This document shows positions 46,992 through 63,542 of a stretch of DNA of 64,000 nt, one piece after another (position 1 is the stretch's first letter; each line of letters opens with the position of its first letter). This DNA is from Cypionkella psychrotolerans (GTDB lineage: Bacteria; Pseudomonadota; Alphaproteobacteria; Rhodobacterales; Rhodobacteraceae). Made by a program: the position numbers and the translations under genes. The stretch lies in NCBI RefSeq assembly GCF_001294535.1, contig NZ_LGIC01000033.1, positions 186,001-250,000 of the forward strand, read 5' to 3'. The notes beneath the pieces are model-generated. The model saw only the letters and a program-made list of their open reading frames with translations. It searched no databases and was not told the origin of the DNA.

Positions 46992-48274
46992 TCATTTCAC
47001 GGCGGCGAGACTGTCTTCGGCGGAAAAAGCCACCTTATCCAGGGTGGCTTTGATGTCGGTTTTTCTGCCAGTGAACAGCTCTTCCAGCGCAAGATCCAGA
47101 TTGTCGCCGATCTCTGGCCGCGCTGGACTTGCCATGATCAGCAGGTTGGTTTTAGGGTTGGTATCCAGCAGCGCCTGAATATATTCCGCAGGCCCCAATT
47201 TCTTGTAAGCCGCGCTTTGCAGGGTTGAAACCCGGCCAACGTCGGACGAAATCCCTTCCGCCAGACGGCTGGCTTCCATATCTTTCGAGGCGGCCCAACA
47301 CACGAAATCACCCGCCACGATCTTGGTGCAATCGTCCTTCGTGCCCACTGTCGACACCGCCCAGCCATGGCCCCAGCCCGCCGAACGCAGCGGGTCCGGC
47401 GGCGGCGCATAGCCAACCTTGCCCACCGCAGTTGATTTTGAGGCATCCTCTATCCAAGGCCCGAACACATCGGATTCAATCAGCAAGGCAACTTGGCCGC
47501 CACGGAACGCCTCAACCGAATCCGACCAGTTGAAGGTGCCACCGCCCGGAGGCGCGTTCTGCATCAGATCCATGTAAAGTTTGGTCGCCTTCGGCGGCTT
47601 CCGAGGCGAAGGCCGGGCTGCAGTCTCCGTTCAGCCGCTCACCACCCACCGCCCGGATGAACGGCGTCCAGCGCCAGACGTTCATCCCCGAGCCGCGCTG
47701 ACCGCGTGCCGACCAGCTTGTTGTCAGGATCGTTGGTGGCTTTGATGGCTGCCACAAGTTCGTCCAGTGTTTTGGGCAAGGCGATGCCCTTGGCCTCAAG
47801 AACGTCCTTGCGATACATCAGCACGTCGCCGCCGCCGACGAAGGGCGTGAAATACTGCACGCCGTTGTAGCTGGCCACATTGGCCAGATCGACATGGAAG
47901 CTTTTGATATCATTGGGATCCGGCACCACCTCCGCCAGCGGATAGACCCAGTCCGCGCTAGCACATTCCGCCAGATTGGCCTCGTCGATATAGATCACCT
48001 GATAGGCACCCGCCCCGGTCGAGGCATCCAACCGGGCTTTTGAGCGGCGCTCGTTCTCGCCCAGCGGGGTAATCTTAACCTCGGTGCCCCATTTGGCGTT
48101 GAGCGCGACCAGATGTACATCGAGTGCGGTTACGGCGGGCACGCCTTGGGCGATCACCCCCAATGTCGGCACCTTACCGATGCAGGCGTCGGCGTCGTGC
48201 GCGGAGGCAATCCCCGGCAGCAGGCTTAGAATCATCGGGCATGCCGTGCCCAAAAGCAGATGTGTCAGTTTCAT
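46992..48274 (-). pseudogene. Extracellular sugar-binding protein, frameshifted
   Basis: The N-terminal half starts at the ATG at 48274 behind AGGGAGA with signal peptide MKLTHLLLGTACPMILSLLP and continues to KTLDELVAAIKATNDPDN. After a break at about 47570-47700 the C-terminal half resumes with GTFNWSDSVEAFRGGQVALL and ends at 46992. The two halves together match a family 1 solute-binding protein of a sugar ABC transporter. At least two frame changes disrupt the middle. Confidence 0.8.
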
Positions 48275-48328
48275 GTCTCCCTCTTCCTTGTTGCAGTCCG
48301 TTTTTCGCAATCCCAGCGCGCCACTCCC

Positions 48329-48816
48329 TCAGGCAGTCAGCGCCAGCATCCCCAGATCAAACCTGACGAATTCTTGAAACCTTTGGTCGTCAAACCCAGC
48401 GTGGTCCGGGTTCGGATCATACCTGCGCCCCACGCTAGGCATCGCAGCTGTGGCGCGGGTCAGATAGGGGTGCAGACCGCCCGCAACCGCGGCACCAAAT
48501 CGCCGCCCCCAGCGCGCCAACTTCTTCAGCTTCGCAAATCTCGACGGGAAGTTGGTAGATGTCGGCAAAGATCTGGGCCCAAGGCCCGCTGCGCGCCGCA
48601 ATCCTACCCGCGTGGCTGAAATCCTCGGCCAACAGTGCCGAAATGGCGGCGACGGTAGCAAGTCAGAACGCCTCGGGGTCGCGTTCTACCCGACCATCGG
48701 GGTGATGCATCGTCACTACCGAGGCCATGCGCAGCCCAATCAGCCCCCGTCACAGCGGTCAGCAAGACCTTTACGCCGGTTCCGCCTGTATCAATCGCCA
48801 GAACAAGATCAGCCAT
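48329..48816 (-). pseudogene. FGGY carbohydrate kinase, large internal deletion
   Basis: The first residues MADLVLAIDTGGTGVKVLLT are the FGGY phosphate-binding start, and the end (IFADIYQLPVEICEAEEVGA plus LGAAIW) is the FGGY C-terminal domain. Only about 160 codons remain of about 500, in more than one frame. The kinase is certainly inactive. It overlaps the end of the GlpD-like gene by eight bases, as expected for an operon. Confidence 0.8.
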
Positions 48817-50262
48817 GCGCGGCACCCCGATCCGGGTGGCGCAGAGCAAAGATCCGCGGGTCGGCCATGGCGCGTGCCAGTTCTGCCGCCCGCCGCTCCG
48901 GGTCTTCGCCAAGCGCGGCTGCGAGGATCGCTGCCAAATCCTGCAGCGTGGCCGCGCCGAGATGGGCCCCCAGCGCCAACTGGGTGCGCCGCAACTCCAG
49001 ATCGTCCAAATAACAGGCCGCGCGGTTGCGGATCAATCACAGGGTTTCGCGCATCGTATAGCTGGGTGCATCCACCACGGGCCGATCCACGGCCTCGTCG
49101 GAAAACCGCGCGACCTCCGCGCCAATCCGGTCATAGCGCCGCCCCTGCGCCGGTATAGCCGCGGTCGCGCGTCGAGAGCTGTCGTGCGCGGCCCAAATGC
49201 GCCAGCATGCGATCAGAGGCGAGTTCTGCAAACGAGCGAAACGTCATCCACTTGCCACTGACCAGTGACAGCAACAGCCACGCTCTGTGGCAAGTGATCC
49301 TCGTGCAAAGCGTGGTCGCGCGGGGCGCGATTGACCGAGCCGTCAGCGTTCTGCAATGGCCTGATCCCGGTGCCACGGAAACCAGATGCGCTATGATCAC
49401 GGTGATGTCGTCGAACAGCCGTGAGATCGCAGCCAACAGATAGCTGATTTCCGCCAAGGGCAGGCAAATCACCATACGCCCGCGCCCGTCATCAAAGTTA
49501 AACCCCTGGCCCGCCAGACGGGCGTGCAAGGCCGGATGGTGCAGCATCATATGCGCGCCCTTGACGCCGCGCACATGCTGGATCTCCACGCCAAGCCGTG
49601 CATTGACTCGGTCAATCCATGCCCCGGTCGCATTCAGGATCACCCTTGGCCGCAACATCAGCGGACCACTGGGGCGATCGACCACGACGTCACAATCTGC
49701 CGATACAGTCCAACGGGCATGGTTCAGCGCCGCCACGGCGGGATGGGCCGCAACCGATTCCGCCAGCACCTCAAAGATCAGCGCTTCGGGATTGCTGATC
49801 TGACCGTCAAATACTGCACCACGGCGCGGGTGCCCCTGCGAAAGCTGATGGGAAATTTGGCCGTGTCGGTTGTGGCCTTATGGGCTGGCAACATACGCTC
49901 GATGGCACCGAACCATTCGTAGAGCACCAGACCCGCTTTCAACGCGAACAGACGCATCGGACCGGATTTCTGCGACACGCCGACAAAGCGCATCGCCTCG
50001 CCAAACAGCCCGCGTGGGATCCCATTCAGCGCCCCCACGATTTCCAGCGGCCTGACCAGATGCGGCGCATGACGCAACAGCAGATTACGTTCACGCGCCG
50101 CTTCGGCAACGAGGCGGAATTCGCGCCCCTCAAGATAGCGCAAACTGCCACCCCATTCACCCCGCCGCCAAGCACCAGCACCTCGGGGGCAAGGCTCTGC
50201 GTAATCCGGGCAATCCCAGCCTCGCGAAACGTCAGGATAGAAGGGGGCAGCATTTCGGACAT
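48809..50262 (-). pseudogene. GlpD/EryB-like FAD-dependent polyol phosphate dehydrogenase, decayed
   Basis: Minus-strand pieces in order are: APEVLVLGGGVNGVA (start), then after a deletion of about 35-45 residues RYLEGREFRLVAEAARERNL, then PRVILNATGAWIDRVNARLG, SGKWMTFRSFAELASDRML, and DLELRRTQLALGAHLGAATL near the end. They match GlpD-type dehydrogenases. The missing stretch holds FAD contacts, and at least four frame changes occur. The gene headed the decayed operon. Confidence 0.82.
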
Positions 50263-50541: not shown

Positions 50542-51516
50542 TCATACCTTGCCCCGGTGGTCATGACGCGGGCCGAACAGCGCGCCCACCCGGGTTTCAC
50601 GAAAACCCTCGCCTGTACGATCAAGGAAAAGCGCGTCAATCCGGTGTCTGCGCGCCACTACCGCGCCCTCCACGCTGCCTTTGACCATCAGGGCTGTGGC
50701 CCAAGCATCGGCCTGCATACAAGTGGCGGCGATGACCGTGACAGAGGCAGGTGACTCTGCCAGCGGACCGCCGCGCGCAGGGTCAATTGTGTGCGACAGC
50801 TGCTTTGCTCCAAGCGTGATCCAGTGGCGGTAATCCCCCGAAGTGGCCACCGCCGCGTCTTGCAGGGCGAGCATGGCATGGGGTGCCCGGATCTGGCGAT
50901 CTGGACGCTCGACAGCAATGGTCCACGGCGCGCCGTCAGGTTGCAGGCCTATGGCGCGCAGTTCACCGTCGATCGCAACAAGGGCGTTCGTGATGCCAAA
51001 GTCTGCCGCAACTTCGGCCAAGCGGTCCACGCCGTAGCCCTTGGCAATGCCTGACAGATCAAGGCTGATCGGGCCGTGTTTGCGCGCGCGCAGGTTGGTG
51101 GGATCGAGTTCCACCACGTCGTGCGCAGGGCGGCGGGGGCGCGCAAGTGCGGCACGAATGGCGGTTTGATCCACCTGTGCTGCCCCAAAACCCCAAGCAG
51201 TGACGGCATCGCCGACGCCAATGTCAAACGCGCCACCCGAGGCTTGCCCAATGGTAAGCGCGGTCTGAAGCACCTGCATCAGGCGGGCGGGCAGAGGTCG
51301 CCAGACCTCCGGTGGGGCTGCATTGAACTGCATTAGGGCGCTGTCGGCGCGCCATGTCGACATTTGCGCATCAACTTCAGCCACGGCAATTTGGAGGGCT
51401 GCGGTCAGTGGGGCGGGGGCAAAGCCCTGTGGCATATCGAACAAAACCTGCCACCGCGTGCCCATCGTCTGCCCGTTCAAAGCATGGCGGGTCAGCTCAG
51501 TAGATATCTTCAACAT
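50542..51516 (-). CDS. apbE: FAD:protein FMN transferase ApbE
   Basis: This 324-residue protein has the ApbE motifs: TMGTRWQV at the mature start, SGGAFDIGVGD, DLSGIAKGYGVDRL for FAD, SHTIDPARGGP, and ADAWATALMV with the metal-binding Asp. It transfers FMN from FAD to Thr or Ser in target proteins. No signal peptide precedes TMGTRW, unlike classical exported ApbE. The ATG overlaps the reductase gene by 20 bases. The DUF2271 protein encoded upstream has a matching target motif. Confidence 0.93.
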   Translation of the reverse strand: MLKISTELTRHALNGQTMGTRWQVLFDMPQGFAPAPLTAALQIAVAEVDAQMSTWRADSALMQFNAAPPEVWRPLPARLMQVLQTALTIGQASGGAFDIGVGDAVTAWGFGAAQVDQTAIRAALARPRRPAHDVVELDPTNLRARKHGPISLDLSGIAKGYGVDRLAEVAADFGITNALVAIDGELRAIGLQPDGAPWTIAVERPDRQIRAPHAMLALQDAAVATSGDYRHWITLGAKQLSHTIDPARGGPLAESPASVTVIAATCMQADAWATALMVKGSVEGAVVARRHRIDALFLDRTGEGFRETRVGALFGPRHDHRGKV

Positions 51517-53701
51517 AGCGTCCCTCGGCTTTCAGCGCCGCCGGGGTCAGGCCCGAGGGTGCTAGGATTTCGGTCAATGCCACGGCCACGCCAGCCGCCA
51601 TCTCGCGCCCGCCGCAGACCATCACGCGTGCCCCGTCGCGGATCAGACGGGCGATTTGGGCGGCCTCGCCGCGCAGCGCGTCTTGGACGTAATGTGGCTT
51701 AGTGCCGCGCGAAACGGCGGTGGTCAGCATGGCAAGGCGGTCTTTGACCTGCCACCGGCTAAGCTCTGCACCATAGAGAAAATCACTGTCAGGGTGGCGC
51801 ATACCAAAAAACAGGTGGATCGGGCGCAGCCGGTGATTGCCCCGGATGATGCCAGCCAATGGCCCTATGCCCGTGCCCGCGCCGATCAGGATCAGTGGCA
51901 CGCGATCACGTCCGGCGTGGAAGTTGGGGTTGTGACGCAGGAAAGCGCGCACAGTATCACCGGGCTCCAGCGCCAGAAGTTGGCCCGAGCAGAGCCCGCC
52001 TGTGCGTTTCCTTACCACGATTTCAACAAAACCATCCCGGCTGGCAGAGGCCAGTGAGTAGAACCGCGCCACATCAGCGCCTTCTGGCAGAATGCCCAGC
52101 AAATCACCCGCCTGAAAACGGCTGATACCGCGCCCGACAAGGCGCTGCCACAGCGAGGTCTTGGGCAAGGCAAAGCGCAGTATAGACGTCGGGGCCTGCA
52201 CCTCGGCACCATAATCGTGCCGCGACAGCAGGGTCAGGCTTTGGGTGGTAGCCAAGATGGGCTGATGGGCAAGTGTGAGCGGGACATCCAGCGCCGCGCC
52301 CAGCGCTTGACCCCAGCGGGCAAAGTCCTGCGGTGACTGGCGGTCGATGGTGTCGAAGGGCAACAGAATGGCGTAGCCCTTGGCCGCGGCCTCTGCGGCG
52401 ATGGTTTTGGCAAAAGCGCAAAAGGCTGGAAAGCTGCGGTCGCCAAAGCCCAATACGGCCAGTGCGGCGGCGGGCGTATCAGACCGCGCCAAGCGATTAA
52501 GAAACCCCTTGGCCGATGCCGGGGCGTCACCGTCGCCATAGGTCGCGGTCAGTATCAAGATGCGCTGGGCCTTGGCGTAGCGGGCCGGGTCATAGCTTGA
52601 AAGCGCCGCAGCATGGACGCTTTGCCCCGCTGCCGTCAACGCTGCCTGCAGCGTGGCCGCAAAGCCCCAAGTGCTGCCGCCTTCGCTGCCAACCAACAGG
52701 ATCGTCTCGGCATGGGCAGCGCTTACATTGCCTTTGATCTTCGGGCGCACGCGCCGCCCTGTCAGCCACAGGATCACCCCAGTGCCACCCATCACAGGCA
52801 CGCCCAAGGCCATCAGCCCCAACACCAGCCCCAATGCCGCCGCACCTTGGCCGGTGTGCAGCATGTAGATGGTTTCCGAGACACGCTGCCATGTCGAAAG
52901 CCCTGCCCAGGAAAGCTGCACCCCGGTGCCCTGATCCAGTGTGGTGATACCGGACTCTGTCGTCAGGGTGAAAACATCGCTGGCGTCGCCCGCATAGGGA
53001 AAGGATAATTCCCGCAGCGTGTTCACCGGGGTGTGCTGCAACTGCTGGATGGACGTCAGAGCGATCCCGGTTTTGCCACTCGGCTCGGCCAAGACGGTCG
53101 GCGGGGCTGCGTTATCGGGCAACAGATCGAAGGTTGAGGCTGTCATCCACAAAGCCGTGCTGGACGACAGCAGCAACCCAATCACCGCGATACGGGCGAT
53201 CTCCACATGCAGCCGCCCTGAAAGCGGGCCACGCAACCGCGCAAACCAGCGCTGCCACCCGCCCGCCCTCCGCGCCACCAGCACCATGCCCGACAGCGCC
53301 AAGACCAGCATCGCCGCCGCGCCGCCTGCGGTGACGATCCGCCCGCCATCGCCCAGAAACAGCGCGCGATGCAGGTTGATCAGCCAACGCTCGGTCTGAT
53401 TGGGATCTGCCGAGGCGATGGCTTGCCCGGTGCTTGGATCAACCAGCGCAGAGCCGGGGGTGCCGCCATCGAACCAATAGGCGGTGATCCGCCCCGACGG
53501 CGCGCGGACAATCTGCTCCACCGCCGGGATGGCCTTTTGCACCCGCTGGGCAAGCTCGGCCACGGTTAAGCCAGCCTCTGCCGGGGTAACGCCAAGACGC
53601 TCGGCGGCGGGAAACACCGAAAGCGCCGCGCCGCTCAGCGCCAGCACGGTGAGAAGGGCAAGGGCCAACAGCCCTGGCCAGCGGTGAAGCGCGCGGATCA
53701 T
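51497..53701 (-). CDS. PepSY-TM / flavodoxin / ferredoxin-reductase fusion
   Basis: This 734-residue protein starts with a PepSY-associated membrane module (helices near 8-30, 125-147, 165-190 and 290-318) and continues with a flavodoxin-like domain (ILLVGSEGGSTWGF, TATYGDGDAPASA, about 340-470). It ends with an FNR-type reductase: RFYSLASAS for FAD, LIGAGTGIGP and VMVCGGREMAAG for NADPH, and a terminal EDIY. It can take electrons from NAD(P)H through FAD and FMN to the membrane. The neighbouring flavinylated-type DUF2271 protein is the likely acceptor. Confidence 0.88.
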   Translation of the reverse strand: MIRALHRWPGLLALALLTVLALSGAALSVFPAAERLGVTPAEAGLTVAELAQRVQKAIPAVEQIVRAPSGRITAYWFDGGTPGSALVDPSTGQAIASADPNQTERWLINLHRALFLGDGGRIVTAGGAAAMLVLALSGMVLVARRAGGWQRWFARLRGPLSGRLHVEIARIAVIGLLLSSSTALWMTASTFDLLPDNAAPPTVLAEPSGKTGIALTSIQQLQHTPVNTLRELSFPYAGDASDVFTLTTESGITTLDQGTGVQLSWAGLSTWQRVSETIYMLHTGQGAAALGLVLGLMALGVPVMGGTGVILWLTGRRVRPKIKGNVSAAHAETILLVGSEGGSTWGFAATLQAALTAAGQSVHAAALSSYDPARYAKAQRILILTATYGDGDAPASAKGFLNRLARSDTPAAALAVLGFGDRSFPAFCAFAKTIAAEAAAKGYAILLPFDTIDRQSPQDFARWGQALGAALDVPLTLAHQPILATTQSLTLLSRHDYGAEVQAPTSILRFALPKTSLWQRLVGRGISRFQAGDLLGILPEGADVARFYSLASASRDGFVEIVVRKRTGGLCSGQLLALEPGDTVRAFLRHNPNFHAGRDRVPLILIGAGTGIGPLAGIIRGNHRLRPIHLFFGMRHPDSDFLYGAELSRWQVKDRLAMLTTAVSRGTKPHYVQDALRGEAAQIARLIRDGARVMVCGGREMAAGVAVALTEILAPSGLTPAALKAEGRYVEDIY

Positions 53702-53714
53702 TGCAGTCGCCTCC

Positions 53715-54179
53715 TTAAAGACCGTAGGCGAAGCTGGCGATGTAGCGCCGCCCCTGTGCCGAGGCCCCCGCCGTGGTCAGCGGCACAGCGATCTCATTCG
53801 GACTGTTGCGCATGTCTTCAACCGCCGCATCAATATGCAGCGTGTAGCCCGCATCAAACAGCGCATCGGCCAGATCAAGCGTGATTTCAAGCGAGCGACC
53901 CGCACCCACACTGGCGCCAGTAATCCCGTTGATCTGCGCGGTATCGCCGCTCGTGGCCGCATACCAGTCTGACAAATGCGGGTAATACTTCGATTTGCCA
54001 CCTGCCATCCACAAGCTGCCCGCATAAGCGCCTTGTGGATCGGTGACATAGATCGCGAGATAAGCGCCGTTGCCGCCGTAATCGTTCAGCGTGGTGGTCA
54101 GCGTAACCGGGCGGGCCATCGCTAGACCGGGAAGCGTCAGCGCGGTGGTTAGGGCAAGGGCGGTGAGCAAGGATTTCAT
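53715..54179 (-). CDS. Secreted DUF2271 protein with flavinylation motif
   Basis: This 154-residue protein has a Sec signal peptide (MKSLLTALALTTALTLPGLA, cleavage after AMA) and one DUF2271 domain. Residues 84-90 read NGITGAS, which fits the ApbE target pattern (D/N)xx(S/T)GA(S/T); Thr88 would carry FMN. The ApbE gene and an NAD(P)H-flavodoxin-type reductase lie directly downstream on the same strand. I infer a periplasmic flavin electron carrier. It starts 35 bases after the acidic-protein gene. Confidence 0.85.
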   Translation of the reverse strand: MKSLLTALALTTALTLPGLAMARPVTLTTTLNDYGGNGAYLAIYVTDPQGAYAGSLWMAGGKSKYYPHLSDWYAATSGDTAQINGITGASVGAGRSLEITLDLADALFDAGYTLHIDAAVEDMRNSPNEIAVPLTTAGASAQGRRYIASFAYGL

Positions 54180-54214
54180 AGCAGATCTGCCTTATGGGTT
54201 GGGGAAGGGGTGGC

Positions 54215-54544
54215 TCAGTTCACTTGCACCTTCGGCGGCGCACCCGTGCCGAACAGCCCGTTCGAAGGGGGCGCTACGGTGCCAGCGGGGGCAGGATTGC
54301 TTGTGCCACCGCAAGCGGCACCACCATCGCCATCATCCCCACAGTCATCCTCCGAACTTTCGTCGTCATTATCGTCTTCGTCGCTGTCGATCAGCACGAG
54401 CGGAAGCGCCTGCGCCCCGCCCGGCATCATCGAAGCGACGGAATCTGCCGGGGTGGGCGGCGAACTTGTGGCACTGAAGGCTGGTAAGCCAAGGCAAACG
54501 GTGAAGGCGGTAGAAGCAGCCAGCAGGGCGCGCGTGGTTTTCAT
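54215..54544 (-). CDS. Small secreted Asp/Glu/Cys-rich protein
   Basis: This 109-residue protein has a signal peptide ending at about residue 25 (MKTTRALLAASTAFTVCLGL). An acidic stretch at about 52-72 (DSDEDDNDDESSEDDCGDDG) and two Cys (CGDDGDGGAACGG) follow, then a Pro/Gly-rich tail. I do not recognise a family. The acid/Cys patch could bind metal ions. GGAGACTGACC precedes the ATG at 54544. It is conserved in position within the flavinylation cluster, between the PepSY and DUF2271 genes. Confidence 0.7.
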   Translation of the reverse strand: MKTTRALLAASTAFTVCLGLPAFSATSSPPTPADSVASMMPGGAQALPLVLIDSDEDDNDDESSEDDCGDDGDGGAACGGTSNPAPAGTVAPPSNGLFGTGAPPKVQVN

Positions 54545-54620
54545 GGTCAGTCTCCTGTTTCGATGTGGCCAATTTGGCCGTCTCACCTGAGCGATTCCTG
54601 ACAGCCGCGCAGTTTCTGCT

Positions 54621-54635
54621 TCAGCTTGGCGTCAG
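54621..54635. promoter_or_regulatory. Putative response-regulator box, copy 1
   Basis: TCAGCTTGGCGTCAG contains two TCAG units 11 bases apart, the spacing used by OmpR/PhoB-type regulators. The identical 15-mer occurs at 55129-55143. This copy lies about 77 bases upstream of the acidic-protein gene on the minus strand. Confidence 0.6.
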
Positions 54636-54637
54636 GA

Positions 54638-54664
54638 AGAAAAACCCCGGCCAAAACGGCGGGG
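54638..54664 (-). terminator. Intrinsic terminator after the PepSY gene
   Basis: On the minus strand CCCCG...CGGGG (with inner CC/GG pairs) is followed by five T residues, about 64 bases after the PepSY stop. It would isolate the PepSY transcript from the acidic-DUF2271-reductase-apbE operon, consistent with a separate promoter at the first response-regulator box. Confidence 0.65.
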
Positions 54665-54727
54665 CGAGGTTGGGCCGTGGGACAGTCGACCGGTGGGGGA
54701 GGCGACAAGACGATTGCGCGGCTGGAC

Positions 54728-55045
54728 TCAGTCGTCACTTTTGACCTTGCCACCTTTGCGGGCGCCATCTTCGTCGTGACCTTCGAATTCGATCTGAAGC
54801 ACCTGAAGTGTTGCGGGTTGCACCGTCACTTTAATCCGCCGACCAGACGCGTCGCTGCCATCAATCTGATAGCAGCCGTCGTCAATTTTGATGCGGCGCA
54901 CGCTCCAGTTGTTCTTGACGGCCAATGCAGCCACGGTCTCACGCGGCTGCCAATCGGCCATTGGCACAAAGCAGTCGTCGTCAGCCAGCGCCTGGCTCGC
55001 CGGAAAAGCGGCGAGAAAGGTTAGAATTGTCAATGTCTTCATCAT
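54728..55045 (-). CDS. Secreted PepSY-domain protein
   Basis: This 105-residue protein has a signal peptide (MKTLTILTFLAAFPASQALA) and a single PepSY-like domain: VAALAVKNNWSVRRIKIDDG, then CYQIDGSDASGRRIKVTVQP. It is divergent from the response-regulator gene with the inverted repeat between them. PepSY proteins are often targets of neighbouring two-component systems and may bind or inhibit partners in the envelope. Two adjacent ATG codons (55045 and 55042) are possible starts after GGAG. Confidence 0.85.
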   Translation of the reverse strand: MMKTLTILTFLAAFPASQALADDDCFVPMADWQPRETVAALAVKNNWSVRRIKIDDGCYQIDGSDASGRRIKVTVQPATLQVLQIEFEGHDEDGARKGGKVKSDD

Positions 55046-55091
55046 GGGCCAAACTCCGGGTTGCGGCCGTCTTGCGTAGGTTTGCACCATG

Positions 55092-55135
55092 AAGCTGACG
55101 TGAGCCTGAAGCTGTGCATCTGCTCACGTCAGCTT
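55092..55135. promoter_or_regulatory. 14-base inverted repeat in divergent promoter
   Basis: AAGCTGACGTGAGC (55092-55105) and GCTCACGTCAGCTT (55122-55135) are perfect complements separated by 16 bases, centred between the PepSY gene and the response-regulator gene. The right arm overlaps the second TCAGCTTGG motif. Confidence 0.7.
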
Positions 55136-55143
55136 GGCGTCAG
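55129..55143. promoter_or_regulatory. Putative response-regulator box, copy 2
   Basis: TCAGCTTGGCGTCAG is identical to 54621-54635. It lies 45 bases before the response-regulator start and 84 bases upstream of the PepSY start, so it could serve both divergent promoters. Confidence 0.6.
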
Positions 55144-55187
55144 CCCCGGCGCATAGACGGGTCCAACACCAAAGGAAGACACACGCC

Positions 55188-55847
55188 ATGCGCATCTTGC
55201 TGATCGAGGACGACACGGTTCTGGGTGCTGCGGTGCGCGACCAGATCGCAGGCGATGGCCATTCGGTCGATTGGGTGACGCGGCTGGACGCGGCGGCAGA
55301 TGCGATGGCGGTGGCGGGCTATGATCTGGTGCTGCTTGATCTGATGCTGCCTGATGGGCGCGGTATTGGGTTTCTGAAAACCCTGCGTCAGCGCGGCGAT
55401 GTCAGCCCTGTGATCATTCTGACTGCGCTGGATCAGGTGTCTGACCGCATCGAAGGGCTGAATGCCGGGGCGGATGACTATCTCGTCAAACCCTTTGATC
55501 TGGCAGAATTATCAGCGCGAATCGGATCGGTCGCGCGGCGCTATAGCGGCAATCCGAACCCGATCATCAGCCACGGCGTGCTCGACATCGATCTCGCCGC
55601 GCGCAGCTTACGGCGTGACGGCAAGGCAGTGCCGCTGACCGCGCGCGAATGGGCGCTGCTTGAGGCATTGCTGGCCCGTCCCGGTCAGCTTTTGTCGAAA
55701 GCGCAACTGGAAGAAAAGCTTTACGCCTTCGATACCGAGATCGAAAGCAACACGATTGAGGTGCATGTCAGCCGCCTGCGCAAAAAGCTGGGTGCCGCGG
55801 TGATTGAGACCGAGCGCGGGCTTGGCTATCGGCTGGGCACGGCATGA
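55188..55847 (+). CDS. OmpR/PhoB-family response regulator
   Basis: This 219-residue regulator has a receiver domain with the acidic pair in LLIEDD, phospho-acceptor Asp51 (LLDLMLPDG) and Lys in VKPFD. A winged-helix effector follows, with EVHVSRLRKKLG and ERGLGYRL. The ATG at 55188 follows AAGGAAG. Its stop overlaps the kinase start (ATGA). By position it controls the divergent PepSY/flavinylation genes. Confidence 0.94.
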   Translation: MRILLIEDDTVLGAAVRDQIAGDGHSVDWVTRLDAAADAMAVAGYDLVLLDLMLPDGRGIGFLKTLRQRGDVSPVIILTALDQVSDRIEGLNAGADDYLVKPFDLAELSARIGSVARRYSGNPNPIISHGVLDIDLAARSLRRDGKAVPLTAREWALLEALLARPGQLLSKAQLEEKLYAFDTEIESNTIEVHVSRLRKKLGAAVIETERGLGYRLGTA

Positions 55848-57184
55848 GCCGCCCGCGCAGCCTGCAAGCCCGGCTCGCTCTGTCGCTCGGGGCGCTGCTG
55901 ACGGTGCTGTGGCTGGCGGCGGCTTGGGTGACCGGGCTGGTGTTGCGTCACGAGATGGACGAGGTCTTTGACTCGGCGCTGCAAGAAACCGCGCAACGTC
56001 TGCTTCCACTGGCGGTGCTGGATATTCTCGGCCGCGATGATGATGGCGTGACCCAACGGCTTGGCGCGATCCGCACACATGGCGAGTTCTTCACCTATAT
56101 CGTCCGCGACGCGCAGGGGCGGATTTTGTTGCAATCCCATGCGGCGGACCCTGCGGATTTTCCGGCCTATGACGGGGCGGGGTTCCGGCAGACCGACAGC
56201 CATCGCTTCTATAGTGAGGACGCCGTGCAGGGCAGCGTGCGGATCACCGTGGCCGAGCCACTAGAACAACGCGCCAAAGTTGCTTGGGAAATCCAGATGG
56301 TGCTGGGCCTGCCGATCTTGCTGGTGATCCCGATTGCTTTGCTGGCGATCATACTGGCAGTGCGCGCCAGCCTCGCACCGCTGCGCCGCTTTCGCGAAAC
56401 GCTGTCCGCTCGCAGCGCGCGCGATTTGTCGCCAGTGACGGTTAGCGGCTTGCCTGCTGAAATCCTGCCCGTAGCCGCCACATTGAACGGCGTGTTAGAG
56501 CGCCTGAAGGCGGCCTTTGAGGCCGAGCGCAGCTTTGCCGCCAATGCCGCCCATGAGTTGCGCACACCCTTGGCGGGGGCCATCGCGCAGGCGCAGCGGT
56601 TGCAGGTGGAAACCAAGGATGCGAGTGCAGTGCGCCGCGCGGCGGATATCGAAGCCGCGCTGAAGCGGCTGACCCGGATGGCCGAACGGCTGTTGCAACT
56701 GGCCCGTGCCGAGGGCGGGCCGCTGCGCTTGGATCACGCGACCGATCTGGGGCTGGTGGCGCGGCTGATCGTCGAGGATATGCGGCGCGCAACCGCCTCC
56801 CAAATCCGGTTGACCCTACCGGATCAGCCGGTTTTGTCGGACCTGGACCCTGATGCTTTTGGCATCATTTGCCGCAATCTGGTCGAGAACGCCCTGCGGC
56901 ATGGCACGCCACAAGGACAAATCGACGTGACTTTGGCGCAAGACGGCACATTCCGCGTTGGCAATGATGGCCCGCTCGTTCCAGCGCAAAGCCTCAGACT
57001 GCTCACCCGACGATTTGAGCGCGGCGACGCTGGCACCGAGGGCAGCGGTCTTGGCCTTGCGATTGTCGCAGCCATTGCCGACCGCATATCGACACGGCTC
57101 ATTCTCACCTCCCCCCGACCCGGCACAGCGTCGGGATTTGAAGCCGCTTTGACAGTGCCAATCGCTGCCACGGCCCCCCTTTGA
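55844..57184 (+). CDS. Sensor histidine kinase
   Basis: This 446-residue kinase has transmembrane helices at about 12-34 and 153-173 and a periplasmic sensor of roughly 120 residues. The HisKA motif AAHELRTPLAG holds phospho-acceptor His237, and an HATPase region follows with NLVENALRHG and GSGLGLAI. The N box and G boxes are intact. It overlaps the response-regulator gene by four bases. The stimulus is unknown; the setting suggests a redox, metal or flavin-related envelope signal. Confidence 0.92.
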   Translation: MSRPRSLQARLALSLGALLTVLWLAAAWVTGLVLRHEMDEVFDSALQETAQRLLPLAVLDILGRDDDGVTQRLGAIRTHGEFFTYIVRDAQGRILLQSHAADPADFPAYDGAGFRQTDSHRFYSEDAVQGSVRITVAEPLEQRAKVAWEIQMVLGLPILLVIPIALLAIILAVRASLAPLRRFRETLSARSARDLSPVTVSGLPAEILPVAATLNGVLERLKAAFEAERSFAANAAHELRTPLAGAIAQAQRLQVETKDASAVRRAADIEAALKRLTRMAERLLQLARAEGGPLRLDHATDLGLVARLIVEDMRRATASQIRLTLPDQPVLSDLDPDAFGIICRNLVENALRHGTPQGQIDVTLAQDGTFRVGNDGPLVPAQSLRLLTRRFERGDAGTEGSGLGLAIVAAIADRISTRLILTSPRPGTASGFEAALTVPIAATAPL

Positions 57185-57384: not shown

Positions 57385-59037
57385 ATGACGCAGCAGGGCG
57401 ATCAGAGCAGTGCCAAAGTGCTGGCCGAATTGGTCGCACCCGAGCGGCGTGCGCTGCGTTGGGCGGCGGTTTTGTCCGGGCTGGCGGCGCTGATCTGGCC
57501 GTTGCAAGCGGCTTTGGTGGCAGGCGCTCTGGCCGGATTGCTGACCGATACCGCGCCGCTTTGGTCATATGTCGCCGGATTTGCGCTGCTGGGGGTGCTG
57601 CGTGCGCTTCTGAACCACTGGGCCGAGGGCATCGCCTTCACCGCAGGTCTGCGCGTCAGCAGCCAGTGCCGGGCTGCGATTGTGGCGCGCGAGGCTTGCC
57701 GCAGTGATGGCCCCGCCGCTGGACCCATCGCCGCCCTTGCCACCGAAAAGCTGGAGGCGCTTTTGCCCTATGTCAGCCGCTACGCCCCGGCGAAGGCGCG
57801 GGTGATGGTGGTCCCCGCGCTGATCTTGGCGCTGGCGTTCTGGCAATCCTGGGCGGTGGGGGTGATTTTTCTGATCACCGGCCCGTTGATCCCGGTGTTC
57901 ATGGCGCTGATCGGTTGGGCCGCACAAGCCGCCAGCCAACGTCAGATGGCGGAGATCGGCAGCCTGAACGATCTACTGGTTGAACGCCTGCAAGCGCTGC
58001 TCGACATCCGGCTGCTTGGCGCGGGCGAGGCTGTGGTTAGCAGCTTTGCCGAAGCTGCCGACCGTCTGCGCGCGCAAACCATGGCGGTGCTGCGGGTGGC
58101 CTTTCTGTCCTCGGCGGTGCTGGAGTTGTTCGCAGCCATCGGGGTTGCGATGGTGGCGGTTTATGTCGGGTTTTCCCTGTTGGGCCTGCTGGGGTTTGGC
58201 AGCTATGCAACACCTCTGACCCCCGCCGCTGGCATCTTCCTGCTGCTGTTGGCCCCAGAATTCTACCAACCGCTGCGCGATCTGTCGGCGGCATGGCATG
58301 ACCGCGCGGCGGCACTGGCGGTAGCTTCGGAATGGGCCGAATGGCAGGCGCGCGCCGATCCGTCGCAGCTGGGGCAGGGCGCTACGGCGGCGCGATTGGC
58401 AGGACCGGCGGATATCGTCGCCACCGGGCTGCAGGTACGCCTTGGACAGCATTTGCTGACCCTGCCGGATTTCAGCCTTGCCGCAGGCGAGACGCTCGCG
58501 CTGCTCGGGCTAAGCGGCGCGGGCAAGACCACGCTGTTGCGGCTGCTCGCCGGGATGCTGCAACCTGAATCAGGGCAAATCCGTGTCGCAGGCCAGCCCT
58601 TGAACGACCAGACCGCCGATGGCTGGCGCGCGCGCCTCGGCTGGATGCCACAACAGCCGCATTTCCTGAACGCCAGCCTGCGGCACAATCTAAGCTTCGG
58701 GCGACCCGGCGATCTGGCTCCCGTGCTGCGGGTGGTGTCGATGCAAGACGTGGTCGCGGGGCTGCCGCAGGGCCTGACAACCCGGCTGGGCGAGGGCGGC
58801 GGCGGGCTTTCGGGCGGCGAGGCGCGTCGCCTGACCCTTGCCCGTGCCCTGCACGCCCGCCCGGATGTGCTGCTCGCCGATGAGCCAACCGCCGATCTTG
58901 ACGCCACCACCGCCGAGGCTGTCACCGCTGGCCTGATGGCGCTGGCAGCCACCGGGTGCAGCCTGATCGTCGCCACCCATGACGAGGCGCTGGCCGCCCG
59001 GATGGATCGGGTGATCCGGCTGGAGGCGCTGGTATGA
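57385..59037 (+). CDS. cydD: Thiol reductant ABC exporter subunit CydD
   Basis: This 550-residue ABC half-transporter has six membrane helices and then a nucleotide-binding domain: [16 protein letters not shown] for Walker A, GEGGGGLSGGEARRL for the signature, VLLADEPTADLD for Walker B. With CydC it exports glutathione/cysteine to the periplasm, needed to assemble bd oxidase. I use the ATG at 57385; an earlier in-frame start would add 39 unlikely residues. The preceding 200 bases hold no clear gene. Confidence 0.93.
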   Translation: MTQQGDQSSAKVLAELVAPERRALRWAAVLSGLAALIWPLQAALVAGALAGLLTDTAPLWSYVAGFALLGVLRALLNHWAEGIAFTAGLRVSSQCRAAIVAREACRSDGPAAGPIAALATEKLEALLPYVSRYAPAKARVMVVPALILALAFWQSWAVGVIFLITGPLIPVFMALIGWAAQAASQRQMAEIGSLNDLLVERLQALLDIRLLGAGEAVVSSFAEAADRLRAQTMAVLRVAFLSSAVLELFAAIGVAMVAVYVGFSLLGLLGFGSYATPLTPAAGIFLLLLAPEFYQPLRDLSAAWHDRAAALAVASEWAEWQARADPSQLGQGATAARLAGPADIVATGLQVRLGQHLLTLPDFSLAAGETLALLGLSGAGKTTLLRLLAGMLQPESGQIRVAGQPLNDQTADGWRARLGWMPQQPHFLNASLRHNLSFGRPGDLAPVLRVVSMQDVVAGLPQGLTTRLGEGGGGLSGGEARRLTLARALHARPDVLLADEPTADLDATTAEAVTAGLMALAATGCSLIVATHDEALAARMDRVIRLEALV

Positions 59038-60671
59038 CTGCGCTGTGGCAGGTGTTTCACTTAATCTGGCGCGATCAGCGCACGTCCCTGTTACGAGGGG
59101 CTTTACTGAGCGTGGTGGTGCTGCTGGCTGGGGTGGCGTTGCTGGGGCTGTCTGGCTGGTTCATCACCGCTGCCGCTGCGGCAGGGCTGGCCGGGGTCGG
59201 GGTTTCGTTTGACGTGTTCCGCCCCTCGGCCTCGGTGCGTTTCCTCGCCTTGGGGCGCACCGCTGCGCGCTATGGAGAGCGGGTTTTGACGCATGACGCG
59301 ACCTTGCGCGCTTTTACCACGCTGCGGGTGCGCCTGCTGCAAAGCTATACACGCGCGCCTTATGATCGCCTGAGCCGCTTGCGTGGTCCGCAGATGCTGA
59401 ACCGTCTTACCGCAGATATTGACGCGTTGGATGGCCTGCCATTGCGGCTGATCTTGCCACTGATCGCTGGGATCACCACACATCTGCTCACTTTCGCGGT
59501 ACTTTGGGCGCTGGTGGGGATGGGCGTTGCCGCTACCTTGGCGTTGGGCTTTATCGGCGGTGGCGCTGTGGTGCTGATGTGGGCGGGCAGGGTGGGCTTT
59601 GCGCCCTCGCGCCGCGCCGAACTGGCCGCCCAAGCCTTCCGCAGCCGCTTCATTGATCTGGTGCAAGCGCGTGGCGATCTTGCAGTTTACGGCCAACTGA
59701 CTGTGCAGAAAAACGCGGTTCTGGCCGCAGACAATCGCAGGCAAGCCGCCCGCCTTGCACAAGACCGTGTCGAGCGCCGCGCAGGCCTCGCGCTGTCCTG
59801 CCTCGGCACTGGGCTGGCGACGGCGGCCTTGGCGCTAGGGATGGCGCTGGCGCAAAACGGGCAACTCAGCCCTGCGCTGGCCGCGATGGGCTTCTTCGCT
59901 GCCCTCGCCTTGTCGGAAACCGTGTCCCCGCTGCGCCGTGCGGTGGCCGAATTGGGCCGGATGACCCTCGCCGCCCGCTGCGTGGTGCAGGGCCTGTCTG
60001 CACCGGCCCTCCAAATCGGACAAAACGACACGGCGACCACGCTGCGCTTTGAGGCCGTCAGCCACCACCGCACCGGAGCCAGCCGCCCCAGCCTGCACCC
60101 GCTCAGCTTCACCCTGCACCCCGGCGAAACCCTCGCCCTTGCCGGTCCCAGCGGTGCGGGAAAATCCACCGCTTTGCTGCTGGCCGCAGGTCTGCTCCGC
60201 CCCACCAGCGGCGCGATCTGGCTAGGCGACCACAAGCTGCCCGACTGGAGCGAAACCGCCCTGCGCGCGCAACTGACCCTAATCCCGCAACGCGCCGCCC
60301 TGATGGCGGGCAGCATCCGTCAAGCGCTGACCCTCGCCGCGCCCGAGGCCGACGACGCCAGCCTCTGGACCGCGGTGCAAGCCGTGGCGCTCGACCAAGT
60401 GATCCGCGCCAAAGGTGGCCTTGACGCCCAACTCGGCCCGCGCGGCGCGGGCCTTTCCGGTGGAGAATCCCGCCGCCTGACCATCGCCCGCGCCCTGCTG
60501 CGCTGCCCCGCGATCCTGCTGTTGGATGAGCCCACCGAGGGCCTCGATACCGCCACCGCCCGCGACGTCTTGCACGGCATCCGCCGCTATCTGCCCCATG
60601 CAGGGATCCTTACTGCGTCACATCGCCCTGTCGAGCTGGATTGGGCTGACATTGTGCGGATGCTGCCCTAA
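59034..60671 (+). CDS. cydC: Thiol reductant ABC exporter subunit CydC
   Basis: This is the 545-residue partner half-transporter of CydD. It begins with six membrane helices and continues with an ABC domain containing AGPSGAGKSTALLLA, GPRGAGLSGGESRRL and ILLLDEPTEGLD. It overlaps cydD by four bases (ATGA). It lies directly before cydA, the arrangement typical of alphaproteobacterial bd oxidase loci. Confidence 0.93.
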   Translation: MTALWQVFHLIWRDQRTSLLRGALLSVVVLLAGVALLGLSGWFITAAAAAGLAGVGVSFDVFRPSASVRFLALGRTAARYGERVLTHDATLRAFTTLRVRLLQSYTRAPYDRLSRLRGPQMLNRLTADIDALDGLPLRLILPLIAGITTHLLTFAVLWALVGMGVAATLALGFIGGGAVVLMWAGRVGFAPSRRAELAAQAFRSRFIDLVQARGDLAVYGQLTVQKNAVLAADNRRQAARLAQDRVERRAGLALSCLGTGLATAALALGMALAQNGQLSPALAAMGFFAALALSETVSPLRRAVAELGRMTLAARCVVQGLSAPALQIGQNDTATTLRFEAVSHHRTGASRPSLHPLSFTLHPGETLALAGPSGAGKSTALLLAAGLLRPTSGAIWLGDHKLPDWSETALRAQLTLIPQRAALMAGSIRQALTLAAPEADDASLWTAVQAVALDQVIRAKGGLDAQLGPRGAGLSGGESRRLTIARALLRCPAILLLDEPTEGLDTATARDVLHGIRRYLPHAGILTASHRPVELDWADIVRMLP

Positions 60672-60673
60672 AT

Positions 60674-60679
60674 TATAAT
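60674..60679 (+). promoter_or_regulatory. TATAAT element upstream of cydA
   Basis: A perfect TATAAT lies three bases after the cydC stop, with TTGTGC 16 bases upstream inside the cydC end. It could be an internal promoter for cydABX. I did not find a clear Fnr box in the 92-base gap. Confidence 0.35.
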
Positions 60680-60763
60680 CTCTGATATAGCTTAGCCCGT
60701 GCGATTGGGTGCAGGCTTGAGACAGCAAGCGACATCGGCCCCCCGATCAGCAGGAGTACATCT

Positions 60764-62374
60764 ATGGAATTCGGCATCGTCGAACTGTCGCGGTTGCAAT
60801 TCGCCACCACCGCGATGTTTCACTTTCTGTTCGTGCCGCTGACCATCGGCCTGTCGATCATCGTCGCCATTATGGAGACGGTCTATGTGATGACCAACCG
60901 GCCGATCTGGCGGCAGATGACCAAATTCTGGGGGGCTTTGTTCGGCATCAACTTCGCGATTGGTGTGGCGACCGGCATCACCATGGAATTCCAGTTTGGC
61001 ATGAACTGGAGCTATTACAGCCAATACGTTGGCGACATTTTCGGAGCACCCTTGGCGATCGAAGGCCTGATGGCGTTCTTTCTGGAAGCCACCTTCGTCG
61101 GGCTGTTTTTCTTCGGCTGGGACAAGCTGAGCAAAACCGCCCACTTGGCAGTGGCTTGGCTGGTCGCGATTGGTTCCAACTTCTCGGCCCTGTGGATTCT
61201 AATCGCCAACGGCTGGATGCAAGACCCGGTTGGCGCCGCATTCAACCCGATGACGATGCGGATGGAGATGACCGATTTCTGGGCCGTTTTGTTCAACGAA
61301 GTCGCGCAGGCGAAGTTCGTCCATACCGTCTCGGCGGGCTATGTCACGGCTTCGGTCTTCGTGCTCGGCGTCTCGGCGTGGTATCTGCTGCGCGGACGCC
61401 ACATCGAACTCGCTCGCCGTTCTATAGCGGTGGCCGCCGCCTTCGGTCTGGCCTCGGCGTTCTCGGTTGTGCTTTTGGGCGACGAATCCGGCTACAACGC
61501 CACCCACAGCCAAAAGATGAAACTCGCCGCGATTGAGGGCATGTGGCACACCGAACCCGCCCCTGCCGCGATCACCGCCTTCGGCTTCCCAGATCAAGAG
61601 GCGCGCAAGACGCACTATGCCATCCATATCCCCTATGTGATGGGCCTGATCGGCACCCGGTCATTGACCACCGAAATCCCCGGCATCTCGGAACTTGTCG
61701 CCCAAGCCGATACCCGCATCCGCTCTGGCATGATCGCCTATGAAGCGCTGCTGACCCTGCGCGCCGAGCGTGAGGCTACGCCGCAGGTGGTGAAAGATAC
61801 GTTCGAGCTGCACTCTGCCGATCTCGGCTTTGCTCTGCTGTTGCGCAAATATACCGATACGCCGCAGCTGGCGACCGAAGCGCAGATCAAAATGGCCGCC
61901 AATGACACCGTGCCCACGGTCTGGCCGTTGTTCTGGGCGTTCCGCATCATGGCGGGCTTGGGTTTCGCCTTCATCGGCACCATGATCTATTTCTTCTATC
62001 GCGCCTCGTTCAAGCGGATGCAATTCCCGCGCCCGGCGCTGCATCTGGCGGTCTGGATGATCCCGGCACCATGGATTGCCGCTGAAATGGGCTGGTTTGT
62101 TGCCGAATTTGGCCGCCAACCTTGGACGGTGGACGGGGTGCTCCCCACCGCGATGTCAGTGTCAGCGCTGTCGATGACCGAGGTGGCGATCACGCTGGCA
62201 GGCTTTGTGATCTTTTATTCCGTGCTGTTCGTCGTCGAGATGGGCCTCATGCTGAAATACATCCGCAAAGGCCCCTTCCTTGAAGTCGCGGAAACCGAGG
62301 CTTGGATGCAGCGCCACGATGCCCGGTTGGCAGGGCGCAAAAACGCCGATGCCATCGCGATGGTAAGGGAGTAA
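60764..62374 (+). CDS. cydA: Cytochrome bd ubiquinol oxidase subunit I
   Basis: This 536-residue integral membrane subunit has heme-ligand His20 (TTAMFHFLFVPLTIG) and conserved GDESGYNATHSQKMKLAAIE. A long Q loop is present (about residues 240-390), so it belongs to the long-loop, E. coli-like class rather than the short-loop CIO class. It oxidises quinol and reduces oxygen to water with high affinity. AGGAG precedes the ATG. cydB follows four bases after its stop. Confidence 0.96.
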   Translation: MEFGIVELSRLQFATTAMFHFLFVPLTIGLSIIVAIMETVYVMTNRPIWRQMTKFWGALFGINFAIGVATGITMEFQFGMNWSYYSQYVGDIFGAPLAIEGLMAFFLEATFVGLFFFGWDKLSKTAHLAVAWLVAIGSNFSALWILIANGWMQDPVGAAFNPMTMRMEMTDFWAVLFNEVAQAKFVHTVSAGYVTASVFVLGVSAWYLLRGRHIELARRSIAVAAAFGLASAFSVVLLGDESGYNATHSQKMKLAAIEGMWHTEPAPAAITAFGFPDQEARKTHYAIHIPYVMGLIGTRSLTTEIPGISELVAQADTRIRSGMIAYEALLTLRAEREATPQVVKDTFELHSADLGFALLLRKYTDTPQLATEAQIKMAANDTVPTVWPLFWAFRIMAGLGFAFIGTMIYFFYRASFKRMQFPRPALHLAVWMIPAPWIAAEMGWFVAEFGRQPWTVDGVLPTAMSVSALSMTEVAITLAGFVIFYSVLFVVEMGLMLKYIRKGPFLEVAETEAWMQRHDARLAGRKNADAIAMVRE

Positions 62375-62378
62375 CGCC

Positions 62379-63542
62379 ATGATCTTGCATGAACTTCTCA
62401 GCTACGAAACCCTGCGCCTGACATGGTGGGTCTTGGTCGGTGTGTTGCTGATCGGCTTTGCGCTGACCGATGGCTTCGATATGGGGGTAGGGGCCTTGCT
62501 GCCTTTCGTCGCCAAAACCGATACCGAGCGCCGGGTGGCCATCAACACAGTCGGCCCGGTGTGGGAGGGCAATCAGGTCTGGTTCATCGTGGGCGGCGCT
62601 GCGATTTTCGCCGCGTGGCCGCCGCTTTATGCGGTGTCATTCTCTGGCTTCTACCTTGCGATGTGGATCGTACTGGCGGCGCTGATCGTCCGACCCGTGG
62701 CGTTCAAATACCGCTCGAAACGCGATGATCCGCGCTGGCGGGCGGTGTGGGATTGGGCGCTGTTTGCGGGCGGCGCTGTGCCTGCCACAATCTTCGGTGT
62801 GGCGGTTGGCAATGTACTGCAAGGTGTGCCGTTCCATTTCACCGACGATCTGCACGCGATCTACGAAGGCGTGTGGTATATGAAATTCCTGAGCCTTCTC
62901 AATCCATTCGCTTTGTGTGCGGGTTTGGTTTCGCTGTCGATGCTGGTGATGCACGGCGCGGCTTGGCTGACCCTGAAAGCCGAAGGTCCGGTGCAAATCC
63001 GCGCCCGTCGTCTCGGCTCGTGGGCCGCATTGGTGGCGGTTGGCGGCTATATAGGCTTAGGCCTCTGGCTGGCCTACGGCTTTGACGGCTACCAAATCGC
63101 GGGCGCTTACGTCACCGACGGCCCCTCCAACCCGTTGCATTTTCAGGTGAACAAGGGTGGCAGCTGGATGGATGCCTACGCCTTACGCCCATGGATCGCG
63201 ATTGCCCCCGCGATGGGCGTGGTCGGCGGCTTGCAGGCATTTTTGGGACTGAGGGCAGGACGCGAAATTACCACCTTGCTTGCCTCTAAAATGGCAATTT
63301 TCGGCATGATCGCCTCGGTTGGCCTGACGATGTTCCCGTTCATCCTGCCATCCTCCAGCGACCCAAGATCCTCGCTGACGGTCTGGAACGCATCCTCCTC
63401 GCACCTGACCCTGTTCATCATGCTGGTGGTCACGGCGATTTTCCTGCCGCTGATCTTGATCTACACCGCATGGGTTTACAAAGTGCTGTGGGGCAAAGTC
63501 ACCGAGGCGGACGTGTCTGAAAACTCCCATGGCCTCTACTGA
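62379..63542 (+). CDS. cydB: Cytochrome bd ubiquinol oxidase subunit II
   Basis: This 387-residue membrane protein begins with the CydB pattern WWVLVGVLLIGFALTDGFDM and has VGPVWEGNQVWFIVGGAAIF. About eight helices are predicted. It supports heme binding by CydA. It sits between cydA and the small subunit gene with normal spacing. Confidence 0.96.
   Translation: MILHELLSYETLRLTWWVLVGVLLIGFALTDGFDMGVGALLPFVAKTDTERRVAINTVGPVWEGNQVWFIVGGAAIFAAWPPLYAVSFSGFYLAMWIVLAALIVRPVAFKYRSKRDDPRWRAVWDWALFAGGAVPATIFGVAVGNVLQGVPFHFTDDLHAIYEGVWYMKFLSLLNPFALCAGLVSLSMLVMHGAAWLTLKAEGPVQIRARRLGSWAALVAVGGYIGLGLWLAYGFDGYQIAGAYVTDGPSNPLHFQVNKGGSWMDAYALRPWIAIAPAMGVVGGLQAFLGLRAGREITTLLASKMAIFGMIASVGLTMFPFILPSSSDPRSSLTVWNASSSHLTLFIMLVVTAIFLPLILIYTAWVYKVLWGKVTEADVSENSHGLY

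Follow-up and report, generated by a model that had tools for sequence, protein, structure and literature searches.

Gene content and conservation of the island

The stretch analysed here (the window) comprises 64,000 nucleotides of Cypionkella psychrotolerans (assembly GCF_001294535.1, contig NZ_LGIC01000033.1, positions 186,001–250,000) and carries, at 50542–57184, an island whose core belongs to the known PepSY/DUF2271 flavinylation class (Meheust 2021, PMC8238504). Seven open reading frames (ORFs) are intact there, and the ORF list and Pfam place each of them, with its domains, where a sequence-only reading had put it. On the minus strand, the frame of an ApbE-type FAD:protein FMN transferase (50542–51516; PF02424, 2.6e-75; relatives in the PDB include 6nxi) overlaps the stop of a fusion of a FoxB-like PepSY-TM part, a flavodoxin and an FAD/NAD(P)H reductase (51497–53701; Pfam PepSY_TM, Flavodoxin_1, FAD_binding_6 and NAD_binding_1). 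The same strand encodes a periplasmic DUF2271 protein with a Sec-like signal peptide (53715–54179; Pfam DUF2271, 2.3e-32), an exported acidic protein with a conserved C-terminal tail, NPAPAGTVAPPSNGLFGTGAPPKVQVN (54215–54544), for which neither Pfam nor NCBIfam gave a family, and a small exported PepSY_2 protein (54728–55045; PF13670, 7.4e-23). Divergently, on the plus strand, lie the overlapping frames of an OmpR/PmrA/QseB-like response regulator (55188–55847; Pfam and NCBIfam) and a QseC/PmrB-like sensor histidine kinase with a 2CSK_N periplasmic domain (55844–57184; Pfam and NCBIfam, 2CSK_N/HAMP/HisKA/HATPase). The more likely ATG starts are at 54544 for the acidic protein, 55045 for the PepSY_2 protein and 55188 for the regulator. 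The DUF2271 protein contains the motif NGITGAS, as had been noted; the candidate FMN site, earlier numbered Thr88, is residue 87 (codon 53919–53921). Nine window proteins were scanned, and none of them matched DUF4198 (PF10670), a TonB receptor or a cytochrome c family.

Relatives of the island were collected by DUF2271 similarity to the window, so that the counts given here describe this clade and not all DUF2271 systems. The 129 loci (40 stretches, 80 named loci that were the best 80 of 535 confirmed, 8 chosen plasmid regions and the window) were merged at ≥98% identity over the last 400 PepSY-TM residues into 106 groups; 20 of these had short flanks and were left out, which gave 86 full-flank loci, window included. 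The neighbourhood survey against which the sequence-only reading had set its claim of a single unit found the two-component pair, DUF2271, the PepSY-TM/flavodoxin/FNR fusion and ApbE together in 78 of the 86 loci, ignoring kinase or regulator matches below 90 bits and P-ATPase matches below 150 bits. Taken singly, kinase plus regulator were present in 80 loci, ApbE in 84 and PepSY_2 in 80.

Contrary to what had been supposed, the seven genes are not the full set: 56 of the 86 loci hold one gene more. Upstream of DUF2271, on the same strand, lies a cytochrome b561 gene (PF01292) in 40 loci and a ferric-reductase-like gene (PF01794 plus FAD/NAD domains) in 16; neither is found in 30 loci, the window among them. 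Between the b561 and tail genes some relatives carry a further exported ORF of 168 amino acids with its own operator copy in front (L045:8477-8983; also L078, L099, L110, L117 and L111, and a fragment in L074). This family has no Pfam match; visually, its arrangement of His and Glu residues recalls the helices of hemerythrins. A membrane protein of the MgtC/DUF4010 family occurs in 8 of the 106 loci (e.g. L156:7266-8531), directly behind the kinase gene in five.

Among 244 genomes of the order, 37, the Cypionkella genome included, have a DUF2271 relative; the distribution is patchy, and identities reach 88%. Paracoccus, Mesorhizobium and Labrenzia records share PepSY-TM C-terminal halves that are at least 98% identical, with ~98% DNA identity over 6.8 kb. 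Among 72,556 plasmid records, 97 had a DUF2271 match; 71 of these are predicted to be conjugative, and 38 form one species-level cluster of Pseudosulfitobacter plasmids. Co-conservation, near-identical copies across genera and plasmid copies indicate that the island is a conserved unit that can be mobile, and the conservation of gene order and operators across genera and orders argues that it is not a chance assembly. A RepC-type plasmid replication gene lies 8–10 kb from PepSY-TM in 11 of the 106 loci (L152, L153 and others). Two plasmid islands, L154 from Klebsiella pneumoniae and L157 from Marinobacter, hold two-component, ferric-reductase-like, PepSY, DUF2271, PepSY-TM and VIT1 genes and adjoin phosphonate/phosphite genes; the one from Klebsiella is recorded as a conjugative resistance plasmid.

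Operators and probable two-component control

Two double operators accompany the divergent units. The first (55095–55143, unstranded, an exact pattern match) lies between the regulator and PepSY genes and has the 49-bp form CTGAM-N6-CTGAM-N17-KTCAG-N6-KTCAG, its second box following the first by 33–34 bp. Of 95 promoters, 71 carry it exactly and 92 with no more than one mismatch in each box; the expectation from Markov-sampled controls is 0.000. The second (54587–54635, unstranded, one mismatch) precedes the unit formed by the acidic, DUF2271, PepSY-TM and ApbE genes, ~94 bp before the tail gene, and a same-sense box was found at this place in 89 of 106 loci versus about one by chance. In some relatives a third operator precedes extra island genes.

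Across the 5.08-Mb genome, these two sites are the only ones with at most one mismatch at this spacing, and 55095–55143 is the only exact one; two further operator-like sites elsewhere have three mismatches, and the reversed control gave none. Since only two close sites exist in the genome, we conclude that the regulator is probably dedicated to the island, with a regulon of essentially one locus and with the operators as its putative binding sites. The two-component regulation proposed from the sequence thus gains strong sequence support from operators that are conserved among relatives and have no close counterpart in the genome.

The periplasmic domain of the kinase carries an ExxE motif at residues 37–40 (E37 in 92 of 97 and E40 in 83 of 97 sequences), which may be general to the kinase family. 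An ExxE motif is described for iron-sensing kinases of the BqsS/PmrB type (PMC12666569).

Reductase, DUF2271 protein, ApbE and the tailed proteins

In the fusion protein, His 6, 111, 165 and 282 of the PepSY-TM part are invariant in 105 rows. When its profile was compared with solved structures, the only significant relative was FoxB, the Pseudomonas aeruginosa PepSY reductase (7abw; E = 6.2e-9), in which H6, H111 and H282 align with His residues while H165 falls outside the aligned stretches. FoxB has two heme sites with two His each, according to PMC11334425. It belongs to the same PepSY-TM family and differs in that its 382-aa chain is too short for a flavodoxin/FNR part and that the 7abw entry contains no flavinylated partner. 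The C-terminal half of the fusion is, by sequence and by fold, a diflavin reductase of the CysJ/P450-reductase kind, with the same flavodoxin plus FAD/NADPH module as CysJ and CYPOR. The model used for the fold search had a pLDDT of 86.8 and a pTM of 0.59, and FoxB was not among the 50 fold matches listed for it. The PepSY-TM part was also considered as an ApbE target and rejected, the motif being sporadic there (6 of 41).

The TGAS part of the DUF2271 motif is kept in at least 97% of 106 rows. The protein is modelled as a beta-sandwich (pLDDT 85.5); no fold among solved structures matched it at E ≤0.001, the best reaching 0.033, and a comparison with their sequences found nothing at E ≤0.1. 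An unusually conserved DUF2271 signal peptide was considered and is not supported, with a mean identity of 0.78 versus 0.79 in the mature part. The DUF2271 protein of another bacterium was flavinylated at the homologous motif by its own ApbE when the two were co-expressed in Escherichia coli, as reported in PMC8238504. The Cypionkella genome has a single ApbE match and a single DUF2271 match, and it has no FMN_bind match, other ApbE substrate families, such as DUF3570 and NqrB/RnfD, not having been searched.

FoxB homology, the invariant His residues, the diflavin-reductase fold and the flavinylated related DUF2271 make it reasonable that electrons would pass from NAD(P)H to FAD, to the flavodoxin FMN, across two hemes and on to an FMN on DUF2271. 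The electron path of the sequence-only reading is in this respect strengthened by the first three of these features, although each of its steps is predicted from sequence and structure comparison.

The predicted location of ApbE is at odds with flavinylation in the periplasm. None of 101 loci showed a signal-like hydrophobic segment at the ApbE N-terminus, even when the frame was extended to the most distant possible start (a hydropathy heuristic, not SignalP), while the same test was positive for the exported partners DUF2271 (104 of 106) and PepSY_2 (95 of 96). We also considered whether an ApbE without signal peptide is unique to this variant, and rejected this: among 15 class-level DUF2271 loci outside the order, 11 ApbE N-termini were scored (all except L175, L183, L184 and L185) and none reached the hydropathy cut of 1.6 (highest 1.44). 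Among these class-level loci, the ApbE proteins beside DUF2271 in other Alphaproteobacteria (L174, L176–L182) have no hydrophobic N-terminus; the L185 ApbE has, by eye, a signal-peptide-like start. The 2021 survey removed genes without signal peptide, as described for its filter (PMC8238504), and ApbE proteins of this kind may therefore have escaped it. Fumarate reductases are the targets of those cytosolic ApbEs that the relevant part of a review mentions, the Klebsiella ApbE serving a soluble one (PMC12052999). That enzyme resembles the present one in having no signal peptide but differs in that its substrate is cytosolic, whereas the sole candidate substrate found here is exported. In the portion of the open-licence literature that we consulted, no paper was recognised on an ApbE without signal peptide and with an exported substrate. 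As far as these sequences go, either ApbE would flavinylate the DUF2271 precursor before export or the modification would not be as assumed. If ApbE acts before Sec export, no FAD export would be needed, and the picture of how periplasmic flavoproteins are made would change.

The acidic protein is variable, its poly-Asp regions differing among loci. The sequence-only reading had called it an acidic Cys protein; the acidic ORF is real, while a conserved Cys was rejected, since 16 of 61 acid-type proteins have none. Its conserved part is the C-terminal tail (..NPAPAGTVAPPxNGLFGxGxPPxVxxN), present in 84 of 106 loci and carried by the acidic protein in 61 and by the PepSY_2 protein in 23, as split by a simple pattern. 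A DNA pattern for PPxNGLFG gave 22 matches in the 244 genomes, all at most 200 bp from DUF2271; the reversed pattern gave 9 in the same genomes. Matches occurred in 21 of 37 DUF2271-positive and in 0 of 207 DUF2271-negative genomes, tail variants outside the pattern not having been sought elsewhere. The tail has the appearance of a docking motif peculiar to this machine.

Proposed function, alternatives and relation to known systems

In about half of the relatives the island is linked to metal transporters, which we take to belong to exporter families. A P1B ATPase gene follows apbE directly in 29 of 86 loci, with a VIT gene next in 23 of these (in L152, the gap between apbE and the ATPase gene is 5 bp and the ATPase and VIT genes overlap by 4 bp); anywhere in the flanks, the ATPase was found in 36 loci, VIT in 33 and either in 42. 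A P1B relative (E ≤1e-150, at most five candidates scored per genome) was present in 17 of 37 genomes with DUF2271 and in 19 of 207 that lack it (Fisher p = 4e-7). Over all 129 loci, the P-ATPase motif is TPC in 51 of 61, SPC in 8 and another in 2, TPC and SPC being presumably those of P1B-5 and P1B-4 ATPases, respectively. VIT proteins of plants and yeast move Fe or Mn out of the cytosol. In Shinella (L156; one locus, its near-twin L130 being merged with it), an exact operator stands before a PepSY-VIT-P1B ATPase operon 9.2 kb away, so that the metal exporters would share the island regulon there. An ATPase from Cupriavidus has a hemerythrin domain, which some P1B-5 ATPases carry (PMC9388753). 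Nia, a P1B-5 ATPase of Sinorhizobium meliloti, is induced by Fe2+ and Ni2+, and its mutant accumulates both, according to PMC4932525. Nia is related to the P1B ATPases that accompany the island in relatives, including the hemerythrin-domain protein of Cupriavidus; in those relatives the ATPase is only a linked gene, and the window has none.

The plasmid copies, together with the metal-export pumps that adjoin the island in relatives, suggest a role in coping with metals. We lean, with moderate confidence, towards reading the island as a self-contained, sensor-switched transmembrane reduction module that serves in metal stress. The kinase would sense an envelope signal, most likely a metal, and the regulator would bind the two double operators and switch on its own operon, the small PepSY gene and the acidic-DUF2271-PepSYTM-ApbE unit. 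Electrons from NAD(P)H would then be taken up by the FAD domain, handed to the flavodoxin domain and carried through the membrane by two bis-His hemes in the PepSY-TM part, to reduce an FMN placed by ApbE on Thr87 of the periplasmic DUF2271 protein. Reduced DUF2271 would in turn reduce a periplasmic acceptor, an oxidised metal and most likely Fe(III). The purpose of the module would be to tolerate metals, in company with exporters of divalent metals, and not to take up iron in the Fur-type manner. A more specific version, which we put forward tentatively and regard as doubtful, would have a mobile, sensor-switched module for metal tolerance: ApbE, in the cytosol, attaches FMN to the DUF2271 precursor ahead of its Sec export, the tailed proteins bind metal and dock, and VIT and P1B transporters belong to the same regulon. 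The tailed acidic and PepSY_2 proteins might then be dedicated periplasmic partners that dock on reduced DUF2271 or on PepSY-TM.

Several observations weigh against a metal-stress role or against parts of this mechanism. An ApbE with no visible signal peptide and an exported substrate is a misfit for periplasmic flavinylation; apbE is absent from 2 of 86 loci (L116, L154), and the closely similar islands of the L154 and L157 plasmids have no adjacent apbE. Three of the 95 promoters lack the first operator (L070 and Cupriavidus L155 and L158). Neither exporter occurs in the flanks of 44 of 86 loci, the window included; of the 39 P1B copies, only 11 are at most 5 kb from DUF2271, and the P1B relative is also found in the 19 genomes without DUF2271. 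The window's own genome has no close P1B-5 ATPase (~40% at best), and its nearest VIT gene on the contig is ~135 kb off. The kinase ExxE motif, possibly a feature of the whole family, is weak as proof of iron sensing. P1B-4 ATPases, which also occur here, are Co/Ni/Zn transporters in the classification given in PMC4932525, so that more than one metal comes into question. Elsewhere, PepSY/DUF2271 clusters under Fur control have been connected with iron uptake (PMC8238504 and PMC12004947), and the Caulobacter genes CCNA_03155-03159 are up in iron-uptake mutants, their disruption lowering fitness with EDTA (PMC12004947).

A rival reading, which we consider rather unlikely for this island, is iron acquisition, as proposed for other PepSY/DUF2271 clusters: the same path would reduce siderophore- or citrate-bound periplasmic Fe(III) for ferrous uptake. 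The Caulobacter genes speak for it, as do Meheust et al., who take the PepSY clusters, 167 of them with VIT1, as assimilatory and interpret VIT1 as uptake (PMC8238504). Control here, however, probably lies with a dedicated two-component-type operator in the promoter (no Fur-box search was made), and no TonB receptor or DUF4198 occurs among the nine window proteins scanned, the flanks of relatives being only partly annotated. The linked transporters, moreover, belong to families known as exporters.

That the island provides envelope redox defence, with reducing power for periplasmic repair or oxidant scavenging and the metal exporters as a side association, is quite improbable. The cydDCAB genes adjoin it in the window, and the hemerythrin-type and ferric-reductase-type partners of relatives would also fit O2/redox chemistry, but a Cyd protein (≥45% identity, 200 aa) is near the island in 1 of 86 loci, the window itself (most recurring neighbour families not being annotated), and we rejected a link to cydDCAB; L150 has a CydB-like match at 32%. 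Similarly improbable, finally, is a cytosolic job for ApbE in which it modifies another target and DUF2271 works without covalent FMN: the lack of a visible signal peptide, the Klebsiella ApbE that serves a soluble fumarate reductase (PMC12052999) and the islands without apbE speak for it, but a single ApbE and a single DUF2271 match, with none for FMN_bind, were found in the genome (families such as DUF3570 and NqrB/RnfD not searched), and TGAS is retained in DUF2271 and only sporadic in PepSYTM (6 of 41).

Among known systems, the PepSY-like flavinylation clusters, as described in the cluster survey of PMC8238504, share with this locus a PepSY_TM domain (PF03929) near ApbE and DUF2271 with [ST]GA[ST], and include subsets with an NAD-binding domain and with VIT1. 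The two-component pair dedicated to the locus, the double operators that go with it, the tail-bearing acidic/PepSY_2 protein and the fused flavodoxin and FNR are not among the class features in that description; the ApbE here has no visible signal peptide, whereas the survey filter needed a signal peptide or lipidation, and the DUF4198 companion, common but not universal there, is absent from the nine window proteins scanned. The SHP/DHC/cytochrome b clusters (Meyer et al. 2010, PMC2909971) also combine a membrane cytochrome b, a small periplasmic protein and a partly divergent two-component pair, and include a sensor kinase and Orf1, the kinase SK2 being called QseC-related; they differ in that their carriers are c-type hemes, and no DUF2271 or ApbE is described there. 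The present analysis adds the operators with a regulon of a single locus, a tail found only at these loci and an ApbE without visible signal peptide; it also adds the absence of a b561 or ferric-reductase gene from the window, mobility on plasmids and the association with exporters. Flavin-based electron export is poorly understood in the bacterial envelope, its regulators and acceptors being mostly unknown. The present system is compact: it has its own sensor and two mapped operators, and the genome holds a single ApbE and a single DUF2271 and gave no FMN_bind match, so that flavinylation, its compartment and its signal could be tested by single deletions. The copies on plasmids next to exporters suggest that metal handling is here a trait that can be transferred.

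Around the island, cydD, cydC, cydA and cydB (57385–63542) follow the kinase gene in the same direction. Downstream of apbE, 46992–50262 on the minus strand holds split frames of apparently decayed genes, with two SBP_bac_1 matches (one above and one below the cut-off) and a sub-threshold FAD-dependent oxidoreductase (DAO) match; this is the place where some relatives hold the P1B ATPase and VIT genes. Further off, a 604-aa ORF at 37111–38925 has MmeI-type DNA methyltransferase domains and may be part of a restriction-modification gene.

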